A stretch of 11,423 bases of DNA from Promethearchaeota archaeon (lineage in GTDB: Archaea > Asgardarchaeota > Lokiarchaeia > Sigynarchaeales > SOKP01), in NCBI GenBank assembly GCA_019894875.1, contig JAGXNR010000085.1, forward strand, positions 1 through 11,423, given 5' to 3'. Under the pieces are notes generated by a model that was not told where the DNA came from, did not search any database, and saw only the letters and a program-made list of their open reading frames with translations. Both the position numbers and the translations under genes were made by a program. This document shows positions 741 through 3,713 of the stretch, in pieces. Position 1 is the stretch's first letter; the number at the start of each line of letters is the position of its first letter.

Positions 741-1490
741 ATGATTTGTGATGTTTTAATTATTAAAGACGGTTTACCATTGCTATCCAAGAGTTTTCCT
801 AATTCTTCTAATGGTAAGAATATGTTTTCAGAATTAGATAATCTGATAATGGTATCCGGTTTTTTCTCAGCATTAAATTCCTTTTCAAATTCGTTTGATT
901 CACTCGGTTACATAAGCGAGTTGAAAATGGAAAATTCTAATCTAAAACTATCTTTTCTAAAAGACCCCCATGTCCCAGATATAATTTTTCTCGCGACATT
1001 TGATAGCGACTCAGACCTGAAGAGTGTTCAAAGATTTTTGAATAAAATTGCGGAAGAATTTTTCGAAAAATTTGACACTACTCAAATTGCGGATTGGAAT
1101 GGAAAATTAGATAGTTTCAAAACTTTTGAGAATATAATAGAGAAATATGTAAATGAAAATGAGACCGTAGAACAGACTCCGCATGATACAAAAGCGTTTG
1201 ATTGGTTAACAAGTTTTGAAACAGATGATAAAATAGAACTAGAAGAAGAATTTGAATCAAAAAATCCCGATCCTGAATACTATGACTTTATTCCGAGTTT
1301 CATAGGACCCACTTCAAAAAGTATTAACCCAAAAAATTATTTAACAGGAGATATCTCTTATAAAATTTATGAGAAAATTGACGGAATGAAATCCATCAAC
1401 CAGATCACTCATGAACTAAGCATGGAACAAAATAAGGTGTATAATATATGTAAGAATCTCGTTAAGTTGGGTTTTATCTCATTTAACTAA
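741..1490 (+). CDS. Longin/roadblock-like protein with C-terminal winged helix
   Basis: This 249-residue protein has no firm family name. Residues 1-130 alternate short strands with amphipathic helices and contain IIKDGLPLLSKSF and LIMVSGFFSALNSF. That layout, a strand, a DG turn and then a helix beginning xSGFxxA, is typical of longin or roadblock-like small-GTPase partner domains, which are abundant in Asgard archaea. Residues 135-195 are an acidic, low-complexity linker. Residues 200-249 form a winged-helix-like unit (IYEKIDGMKSINQITHEL, then a recognition-type helix ending in LVKLGFIS), similar to the small wHTH modules of bacterial GTPase-signalling proteins. The ATG at 741 has no strong Shine-Dalgarno. 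The CheR-CheD locus follows on the same strand after a gap of about 140 bases. The fold assignment is inference from pattern, not from a database match. Confidence 0.75.
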   Translation: MICDVLIIKDGLPLLSKSFPNSSNGKNMFSELDNLIMVSGFFSALNSFSNSFDSLGYISELKMENSNLKLSFLKDPHVPDIIFLATFDSDSDLKSVQRFLNKIAEEFFEKFDTTQIADWNGKLDSFKTFENIIEKYVNENETVEQTPHDTKAFDWLTSFETDDKIELEEEFESKNPDPEYYDFIPSFIGPTSKSINPKNYLTGDISYKIYEKIDGMKSINQITHELSMEQNKVYNICKNLVKLGFISFN

Positions 1491-1502: not shown

Positions 1503-1689
1503 ACCACAAATATGGTTTTATCTATTAGAAGCATTTGTTTTCATATTTTCTTATTACAAATAATTAAATATTTACATAATCATATAATAGTAGAGTAAAA
1601 AATAACATTTATTAGGGTTTTGGTGTAAAAATATTTCTTCAACGAATTCAGCAGTATTCAAAACAACAATTGATGATCTGATTGATAAG

Positions 1690-2145
1690 TTGAAAGAAAT
1701 CTCTGACTTGAAATTTGATCAATATCAAAGAAATTTCCTTGAAAAAAGAATTTCTTTTAGAATGAGGCACTTAAACCTAAATATTGATGAATATATTAAT
1801 TATATTCAGAAAAACCCTATAGAGGTTGATTTATTCTTAGATAAATTTACAATAAATTATACTTATTTTTTCAGAAATCTTAACGTTTTTGAGAATTTTG
1901 AGAAATTTATAAAAATTTATATCAAAAATCATAAGAAAAACATCCTTAAAATTTGGTCTGCTCCTTGTGCTACTGGTGATGAGCCTTTTACTATAGCATT
2001 GATCTTGGATAATTTGAAAAAGAATATCATGAATTTTCTGACTTTCAAATATTTGCATCTGATATTGATACAAATGCACTTAAAATGGCAAAAGAAGGGA
2101 TTTATGGAGAATATGCTGTCCATGAAATGCCAGAGCACTATTTGA
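1690..2145 (+). CDS. CheR-type methyltransferase, N-terminal half (5' part of the frameshifted CheR-CheD gene)
   Basis: This encodes the front half of a CheR S-adenosylmethionine-dependent glutamate methyltransferase, the enzyme that methylates chemoreceptors. CheR_N features are LKEISDLKFDQYQRNFLEKR and NYTYFFRN, which contains the conserved Arg. The SAM-binding motif is IWSAPCATGDEPF, the counterpart of WSAGCSTGEEP in the family. After LDNLKK (about 2021) the frame leaves the CheR pattern and ends in roughly 40 unrelated residues; the pattern resumes in the -1 frame, which the next CDS describes. TTG at 1690 is the first conventional start. However, the frame is open back to 1606, and the family helix (DDLIDKLKEIS) begins upstream of 1690. 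The true start may therefore be a rare ATT at 1633, seven bases after GGTG. An undetected upstream frameshift is the alternative. Confidence 0.8.
   Translation: MKEISDLKFDQYQRNFLEKRISFRMRHLNLNIDEYINYIQKNPIEVDLFLDKFTINYTYFFRNLNVFENFEKFIKIYIKNHKKNILKIWSAPCATGDEPFTIALILDNLKKNIMNFLTFKYLHLILIQMHLKWQKKGFMENMLSMKCQSTI
2017..2021 (+). other. Frameshift site in an A5 homopolymer within CheR-CheD
   Basis: Reading TTG AAA AAG continues the first CheR frame. One extra A in this run would give LKKEYHEFSDFQIFASDID, joining the SAM motif directly to the conserved ASDID region of CheR. Nothing else in CheR is lost on either side. The cause could be a sequencing or assembly indel, a real inactivating mutation, or slippage at G AAA AAG. 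Confidence 0.75.
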
Positions 2146-3713
2146 ACACATATTTTTCAAAGAAAATTACTGAACTTGGTCCAAAATATACCCTTTGTAA
2201 AGAAGTTAAGGATAAAGTAGAATTCATACAAGAGGATATTATTAGTGGACATAATAAAAATAATATTTATGATGTGATCTTTTGTCGTAATTTCTTTATT
2301 TATATTAATCTGTCCGCACGTGAGAATCTACTAATAAATATAGATAAAAAGATACATGAAGGGGGTTTATTAATTTTAGGAGGTTCTGAGAATATTCCTA
2401 GAGAAAACTCTACTTTTAATAACATTAGTATTAGAGACCACTTTTATATCAAAAATTTAGCTAATAAACCTAACTCATATAAAAATGCATTAAGTTCTAT
2501 TTTTCCGAGCCGGATACAGAAAAGAACCACGAAAAAAGGTAATCTCTCTAAAAATCTTAGTGGTACAGGTGAATTAAAAGAGAAACCTAAAAGTAGTGTT
2601 AAAGCTATTAACCCTATTGAGAAGATATTGAAGAGAAAGAAACCTAAAAAAGAGAAAAAGTTAACAGAATTAGATATAAATCCATTAATTGAACCTGCTG
2701 AAGTTAGGATTACTGGAATTGTAGTTAATAATGGAATTAAACAAACGGCACCTAAAGTCAATCTTATTCATCCATTAGAAAATAAGGAAGAGCCAGTTAA
2801 GACAGAAGATAACAAATTAATTAAACGTGAAATTCTCCTTAAACAAAGAGAAAATGAGATCGAAAAGAAAGAAAAATTTATTGAAGAACAATATAAAATT
2901 CTGGAATTTGAGCAAAAGGAAGTAGAAAAACTCCTTTATCAGACAAATGAAAAAGAAAAAGATATCACTAATCGTTTATTAGTTTTAGAACGTGTCAAAA
3001 GGCAAATTGAACAAAGAGAGAGAGCTTTGAATCTGAGAGAAGAACAACTAGAAAAACGCTTGGTAAAAATAGGACAGTATTCAAAAAAAATGATTCAACA
3101 AGAACTTCAAATTAGCAATCAGTCAAAGAAACTAGATAATTTTGACGAAACAGAAGATAGTTTTACTCTTTATGAAGAAAAAAGAATGGATCAGGTCAAA
3201 ATTCATGGTAATAAGAAAGAAATAATAATCAAGATGGGATATTATGGTCTGATACAGTCTTATGATAGAAACATGAGTGCAACAAAATTTAGAATTGAAG
3301 GTCTTGGTTCTGGTATTGGTCTAATATTAAGAGATCTAAAAAATAATGTTTTTGCTATGTCTCATATTTCCTTACCACGATCATCCGCTTCAAAACAAGG
3401 ATATCACTTGCTTTTCCCTCACACGTTTGCTGACACATCAGTGAAAGATTTAATTAATAATTTGTTATATAATGGAGCTAGTAGAGAAAATGTTAAAGCT
3501 CTAATAGTCGGTGGAGCTAAGTTATTTTTAGATTACGATATGACGTATCAAGAAAATATTGATACTATTAAAAAAGAATTACAAGCGTTAGAAATTAAGA
3601 TAGATGCTGAAGATATTGGAGGATTAAGTGAAAGATCGGTACTATATGATACTATTAATGATTCTTTATCTGTTAAGAAATCTTGGGAATTTCAATACCG
3701 AAAAATCACCTAA
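2085..3713 (+). CDS. CheR C-terminal half, coiled coil and CheD-like domain (3' part of the frameshifted CheR-CheD fusion)
   Basis: The coding pattern in this frame really begins near 2022 (FQIFASDIDTNALKMAKEG). The ATG at 2085 lies inside the CheR domain and has no Shine-Dalgarno, so it is not a natural start. The order is as follows. CheR SAM domain to about residue 130, with GIYGEY, VIFCRNFFIYI (family FCRNVLIYF) and GGLLILGGSENI. A Lys/Ser-rich linker to about 240. A highly charged heptad coiled coil, about 245-345 (KREILLKQRENEIEKKEKF onward). A CheD-like domain, about 380-542, with GLGSGIGLILRD, MSHISLP, IVGGAKLF and AEDIGG. CheD normally deamidates chemoreceptor glutamines and binds CheC. 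Here the catalytic Cys position is Gly410 and the Thr position is Ile404, while the His is kept (His427). The spacing matches Thermotoga CheD Thr21/Cys27/His44, so the domain is probably a pseudoenzyme. Confidence 0.88.
   Translation: MAKEGIYGEYAVHEMPEHYLNTYFSKKITELGPKYTLCKEVKDKVEFIQEDIISGHNKNNIYDVIFCRNFFIYINLSARENLLINIDKKIHEGGLLILGGSENIPRENSTFNNISIRDHFYIKNLANKPNSYKNALSSIFPSRIQKRTTKKGNLSKNLSGTGELKEKPKSSVKAINPIEKILKRKKPKKEKKLTELDINPLIEPAEVRITGIVVNNGIKQTAPKVNLIHPLENKEEPVKTEDNKLIKREILLKQRENEIEKKEKFIEEQYKILEFEQKEVEKLLYQTNEKEKDITNRLLVLERVKRQIEQRERALNLREEQLEKRLVKIGQYSKKMIQQELQISNQSKKLDNFDETEDSFTLYEEKRMDQVKIHGNKKEIIIKMGYYGLIQSYDRNMSATKFRIEGLGSGIGLILRDLKNNVFAMSHISLPRSSASKQGYHLLFPHTFADTSVKDLINNLLYNGASRENVKALIVGGAKLFLDYDMTYQENIDTIKKELQALEIKIDAEDIGGLSERSVLYDTINDSLSVKKSWEFQYRKIT

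Follow-up and report, generated by a model that had tools for sequence, protein, structure and literature searches.

CheR methylates glutamates in the same chemoreceptor helices that CheD deamidates. What can a protein be doing that carries both domains in one chain and is encoded among housekeeping genes? The question is raised by a contig of a Promethearchaeota archaeon (JAGXNR010000085.1), the 11,423 nucleotides of which were analysed as a whole and are called the window below. It contains 15 open reading frames of at least 80 aa, 13 of them without overlaps, and two of the latter are pieces of one CheR-CheD gene. At 1633-3713 of the forward strand, a single reading path encodes first CheR_N and CheR, then a disordered linker and a long helix, and finally a CheD fold; it is cut by one frameshift near 2013-2040. 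The neighbours are housekeeping-like (sugar nucleotidyltransferase, GHMP kinase, CDP-alcohol transferase, riboflavin kinase, cytidylyltransferase, translin, ThrRS, HAD and a small GTPase). The features of the locus are as follows.

741..1490, forward strand: F1, a longin/roadblock-like domain with a winged-helix-like end, directly 5' of the fusion at 12 syntenic loci
1622..1625, forward strand: GGTG, Shine-Dalgarno-like (found by eye), 5' of the fusion gene
1633..1635, forward strand: ATT, likely a non-canonical start codon
1672..1818, forward strand: CheR_N, an all-alpha domain, in the frame of 1627 (PF03705, E 7.8e-9)
1855..2025, forward strand: CheR SAM domain, part 1, with NYTYFFRN and the SAM motif APCATGDEP (PF01739, E 5e-12, profile 1-59)
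2013..2040, forward strand: frameshift zone splitting the gene in the contig; the CheR frame differs on its two sides
2040..2435, forward strand: CheR SAM domain, part 2, with FASDID and CRNxxIY (PF01739, E 6.7e-28, profile 64-192)
2436..2810 (approximate), forward strand: Lys/Ser-rich linker, predicted disordered (residues 294-387 of the relative P0003 have pLDDT <50)
2811..3150 (approximate), forward strand: long helix with the heptad pattern of a coiled coil (P0003 model helix 388-501; heptad test on P0003)
3186..3710, forward strand: CheD-fold domain
3312..3314, forward strand: Gly codon at the place of the CheD catalytic Cys (T. maritima Cys27; ungapped alignment to 2f9z_C)

Pfam places CheR_N and the beginning of CheR in the 1627 frame; what remains of CheR lies in the 2028 frame, as does CheD. 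The CheR_N and CheR matches are both above the curated cut-off. NCBIfam concurs, its best CheD match being the T. maritima type (E 1.6e-23, below the equivalog cut-off). The PDB sequence search with the window gene returned B. subtilis CheR and T. maritima CheD, and the fused C-terminal half has the CheD fold as well as the CheD profile.

The beginning of the gene is unusual. From the last stop to CheR_N, the window has no in-frame ATG, GTG or TTG, and a usual start codon is absent in seven of the 11 fusion copies examined. Among 13 rows of the Lokiarchaeal clade, ten including the window have ATT at this site; the variants are ATA in G005, ATA and then ATG in G115, and ACT in the fossil copy of G117. 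GGTG is present in 12 of these rows (absent in G125) and may serve as the ribosome site. The arrangement of GGTG, 6-7 nt and then ATT is found at 1622-1635 of the window and also in L117-L120, L122-L125 and L136. If AUU is a conserved start, this would account for those database copies (e.g. P0012 and P0018, 650 aa) that are called from a Met within CheR_N.

The fusion is a real protein family and not a peculiarity of the window. A protein search scored 7,992 candidates and gave 114 matches, of which 111 were aligned; P0112-P0114, having other domains, were left out, and P0001 is the window's own second open reading frame. CheR and CheD motifs occur together in 98 of the 111 aligned homologues (length 495-744 aa), and all fusion homologues with an organism name are Asgard. 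The order CheR, coiled coil and CheD, proposed for this DNA by an earlier sequence-only reading, is thus found in the window and in the family, and the relatives are not regularly split into separate genes. The model of P0003, 75% identical, runs from CheR through 94 disordered residues and a 114-residue helix to CheD. Structure comparison (Foldseek, VIA-align) recovered the CheR and CheD folds at its two ends; the VIA-align list contained mostly methyltransferases, the CheD half being one clear row there, in addition to Foldseek. The proposed coiled coil likewise has its counterpart in the modelled helix and its heptads.

The CheR half retains its active site throughout the family, as the same reading had supposed for the window. 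In rows with a letter at the position, the Arg of FFRN is kept in 97/97, Asp in 100/100, the second Arg in 103/103 and Tyr in 103/103, which we take to match the catalytic R98, D154, R230 and Y235 of Salmonella CheR. On these residues, the half would be a working SAM-dependent glutamate methyltransferase. It shares with CheR of B. subtilis (5ftw) and Salmonella (1af7/1bc5) the fold, the CheR_N and SAM domains, the SAM motif and the catalytic Arg, Asp and Tyr, whereas the coiled coil and the CheD fold are additions of the fusion. CheR with an extra binding region is also seen in the CheR-TPR fusions, FrzF and its kin; when its TPR part is removed, FrzF is reported to methylate three sites rather than one (PMC3447774, in the part available). 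Unlike in those proteins, the extra part here combines a pseudo-CheD and a coiled coil, and the hosts are Asgard archaea.

The CheD half has lost its nucleophile. The triad of T. maritima CheD is Cys27/His44/Thr21, and CheD deamidates Gln of receptor helices (accessible text of PMC7022378). Unlike T. maritima CheD (2f9z_C), the fused domain lies behind CheR and a coiled coil, and the catalytic Cys is missing from all 98 proteins with both ends, where the column holds Gly (78), Ser (18) or Glu (2). Separate CheD genes differ in this respect: among the loci compared, Cys is present in 16 of 16 distinct ones from Asgard and in all 18 of those from other phyla, gene copies being counted once. At this place, the fusions within the G153-155 che clusters carry Ser or Thr, and the G156 fusion carries Gly; the fusion of G162 is strongly divergent, and its residue there is uncertain. 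Cys is kept in a short 511-aa CheR-CheD fusion of G107 (L149 2709-4244), an early branch among the fusions in the CheD tree, and in a 311-aa coil-CheD piece of G106 (L181).

At the place of Thr21, 101 of 107 rows have Ile. The same residue occurs in several separate Asgard CheDs that bear the Cys, and the loss of Thr21 was therefore dropped as a sign of inactivity. His44 is kept in the window and in 83 of 107 rows. It is scarcely credible that the fused CheD still deamidates by means of Ser or another residue, making the protein a bifunctional enzyme. Such activity would agree with the retained His44, with Ser in 18 of the 98 and with the Cys of the short G107 fusion, but the Cys place is occupied by Gly in most of the 98, and 24 of the 107 rows have Asn, Tyr or Arg in place of the His.

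Judged by the lost Cys, the fused CheD is probably a pseudo-enzyme, predicted to lack deamidase activity, and the deamidase label in database names is probably wrong. Some of these names read 'methylase/... glutamine deamidase CheD', i.e. both domains have already been recorded together. The Phe of GGAxxF (F102 in B. subtilis), reported to be conserved where CheC exists (PMC3513319, accessible portion), is kept in the window and in 99 of 106 rows. For CheD of B. subtilis, the same portion of that source gives deamidase activity a minor role and CheC binding a major one, which makes a CheD that only binds plausible. Since the nucleophile is lost while the fold and the CheC-contact Phe are kept, the fused CheD may be regarded as a binding arm that would not deamidate. 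The sequence-only reading had likewise seen a sensor or scaffold rather than an enzyme in this domain, though the family-wide loss of Cys had escaped it.

Both halves appear to come from a chemosensory system. In the CheD tree the fusions form one group (support 96/78; 98% of bootstrap trees); the grouping is weaker in the CheR tree (73/76; 75% of bootstrap trees). The trees place them beside unfused CheD and CheR from Asgard che clusters (e.g. L134, L138, L143, L153), which are nearest to both halves and differ from the fusion in being separate genes. By this evidence, the cheR and cheD genes of an Asgard che system were probably joined in a single event; because of the long branches (G156, G162, G107), a single origin is likely but short of demonstrated. 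Four genomes, G153, G154, G155 and G162, have the fusion inside a che cluster, on a contig that also encodes a receptor, CheA, CheW and a CheW-CheC protein.

A different setting is found in one Lokiarchaeal clade, to which the window belongs. Here the fusion follows F1 among housekeeping genes at 12 syntenic loci. Of the clade members, G001-G005 and G008 are named as Lokiarchaeota or Lokiarchaeia MAGs, and the rest were placed by the tree. Outside the clade, the same gene order occurs without the fusion in G107, G154, G106, G108 and G006, with F2 within 0.3 kb of F1, and in G112 and G113 with a wider gap of 0.9 kb; the fusion was therefore probably inserted at the Lokiarchaeal slot. F1 without the fusion and with F2 within 0.3 kb is also found in G124. 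F1 resembles VAMP7 and other longins (best Foldseek matches, E 6e-5), matches no Pfam family above the cut-off, and its fold is tentative because the mean pLDDT of the model is 62.8. It was rejected as an obligate partner of the fusion, having at least 384 homologues at E <= 0.001 and a gene order that is kept without the fusion.

Seeing no other chemotaxis gene and no receptor around it, the sequence-only reading had placed the gene away from any chemotaxis cluster. This is true of the locus and does not extend to the genomes. Receptors were found in 51 of 227 genomes of the phylum, CheW in 44 and CheC in 41. A full or near-full fusion is present in 16 genomes (G001-5, G008, G107, G115, G119, G120, G125, G153-156, G162; G001, G005 and G119 are counted though with one stop). 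All 16 have receptors and 12 have CheA, the search for which covered 28 genomes; it was not found by genome search in G001, G005, G008 and G119. The absence of a gene rests on genome searches and, in five genomes, on the deleted site as well.

At the Lokiarchaeal slot, the state of the fusion was compared with the orthologous che site genome by genome. In the six slot genomes bearing CheA (G002, G003, G004, G115, G120, G125), the fusion is always intact, in one open frame with both ends. Deletion of che genes was seen in G126 (cluster wholly gone, on a 2.27 Mb contig), G128, G117, G005 and G001 (CheA reduced to 239 of 694 residues), and in all five the fusion is broken or fossil, its remains being a tail of 102 aa, a remnant with an internal deletion, a head of 67 aa and two stop-bearing copies. 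The contrast of six against five has a naive exact p of 1/462 if kinship is ignored; all four independent tree pairs agree in uniting che deletion with a broken fusion, for which the sign test is non-significant (p 0.125).

The strict count left out G106 and G107 (fusion or pieces elsewhere), G153-156 and G162 (in a che cluster or unplaced), G124 (che cluster deleted, slot empty), G008, G119 and G121. In G008 the fusion is intact and the contig ends in the che flank, which is 91-99% identical to that of the cluster-bearing G007, and the absence of che genes is therefore unusable as proof. An orthologue of K8 was not found in G119 and G121, so that che deletion was not seen there; the fusion has a stop in G119 and is a frameshifted C-terminal part in G121. 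When G119, G121 and G008 are added, the last scored against the reading, the pairs average 3.9 agreeing and 0.1 not differing. CheA is present and the slot empty in G006, G106 and G107; G127 has CheA and has lost the block. The fusion is not essential to the pathway, since some genomes with CheA are without it at the slot or entirely (G006 with its empty slot, G127).

The dN/dS values in the CheR and CheD domains are 0.04-0.16, even between genomes without detectable CheA (some of the dS values being >1 and rough). The fusion was therefore useful until recently or still is, and loss of function is recent or incomplete. The conserved neighbourhood at 12 loci, the low dN/dS without detectable CheA and the intact fusion of G008, where CheA was not found, might suggest a signalling methyltransferase that is independent of chemotaxis and modifies non-receptor proteins, as had been proposed from the sequence. 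This is improbable, as receptors accompany the fusion in 16 of 16 genomes, it lies in a che cluster in four of them, and it is broken in five of five with che deletion seen; targets other than receptors are unsupported.

Several other proteins were observed around these clusters. Asgard che clusters encode CheW and four CheC repeats in one protein of about 650 aa (L128 1140-3086; G002:C3:42879). A protein of about 273 aa adjoining CheW, K2 (L126 15023-15838; weak longin match PF19036, E 0.04), outlasts the deletion of the che core as nearly full copies in G001, G117 and G128. Adjoining CheA in one cluster is a 1056-aa protein with DUF11 matches and a weak tropomyosin-like stretch (L128 4006-7173). 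Receptor-like proteins with a usual or near-usual tip persist where CheA was not found (L163, L165-L167, L170, L173 and L174, from G119, G008, G128, G005 and G001).

The window copy itself may no longer work, a point that the sequence-only reading had missed. Its sister is G119 (100/100 in the tree; ThrRS 90% identical), which has a TGA in CheR and two receptor-like genes, and in which CheA, CheB, CheW and CheC were not found by genome searches. It is quite possible, if somewhat short of probable, that the window holds a recent pseudogene in a lineage without the che core: the gene is frameshifted, its counterpart in the sister bears a stop, and the flanking open reading frames are open. On the other hand, dN/dS between the window and G119 is 0.11-0.12 in CheR and CheD, similar to that of the neighbours (here too, some dS values are >1 and rough); the contig is metagenomic, where a one-base difference can be a sequencing error, and an 86% identical relative is unbroken across 650 aa. 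The lesion is thus either very young or an error, and long-term decay was dropped as unsupported.

On the whole, the fusion is rather likely to serve chemosensory adaptation, with its non-catalytic CheD as the part that docks CheR on receptors and/or on CheC. After cheR and cheD of an Asgard che system had joined, probably once, the CheR half would methylate receptor glutamates with SAM, and the CheD half would bind instead of deamidating. The flexible linker and a presumably dimerising coiled coil would tether the two. The CheD half could then dock CheR on the chemoreceptor helices that both proteins recognise, and such docking would replace the C-terminal pentapeptide tether of enterobacterial receptors. 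A pentapeptide-like end was found in none of 20 Asgard receptor C-termini, a small sample; the conserved C-terminus of the fusion itself, WExxYRK, was considered as pentapeptide-like and dropped by eye for its misfitting spacing.

Alternatively or in addition, CheC might control where CheR acts and could compete for the pseudo-CheD. CheD of Halobacterium is a hub binding CheC2, CheC3, CheB and CheF (PMC3579733, available part). A stronger form, in which the pseudo-CheD mainly binds CheC (with CheY-P) and the methyltransferase is sequestered or released by the CheY-P level, giving feedback from response regulator to methylation, is possible and on the doubtful side. The contact Phe, the sole interface residue compared, is kept as described; Asgard che clusters contain CheC together with the CheW protein of four CheC repeats; and the balance of binding over deamidation in B. 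subtilis (PMC3513319, as above) points the same way. It is weakened by four of the 16 fusion genomes in which CheC was undetected (G001, G005, G008, G119), in two of these (G001 and G005) owing to deletion of the che cluster. Highly improbable, finally, is an extension of the docking role in which the pseudo-CheD reads methylation sites and hands receptor helices to CheR, and in which, in G008 and kin among the Lokiarchaeia, marking outlives CheA, receptor methylation itself becoming the signal in place of kinase control.

Lokiarchaeum ossiferum has been reported to have 15 receptors, cheA/B/C/D/R/W/Y and putative arrays, and many such che genes to be present in 27 of 97 MAGs (accessible text of PMC9834061). 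No description of a single-chain CheR-CheD protein was found in the open-licence literature, nor is one mentioned in the available parts of PMC11237513, PMC2577667, PMC2829493 and PMC10782961; the literature search found no adaptation study for Lokiarchaeia. The state of B. subtilis CheD, which mainly binds (PMC3513319, portion cited), seems to be fixed across the whole fusion family, and the claim is therefore directly testable. If it is true, the fusion is a pseudo-enzyme solution to the recruitment of CheR without a receptor pentapeptide, and it also marks the gain and loss of chemosensory systems in Lokiarchaeia.
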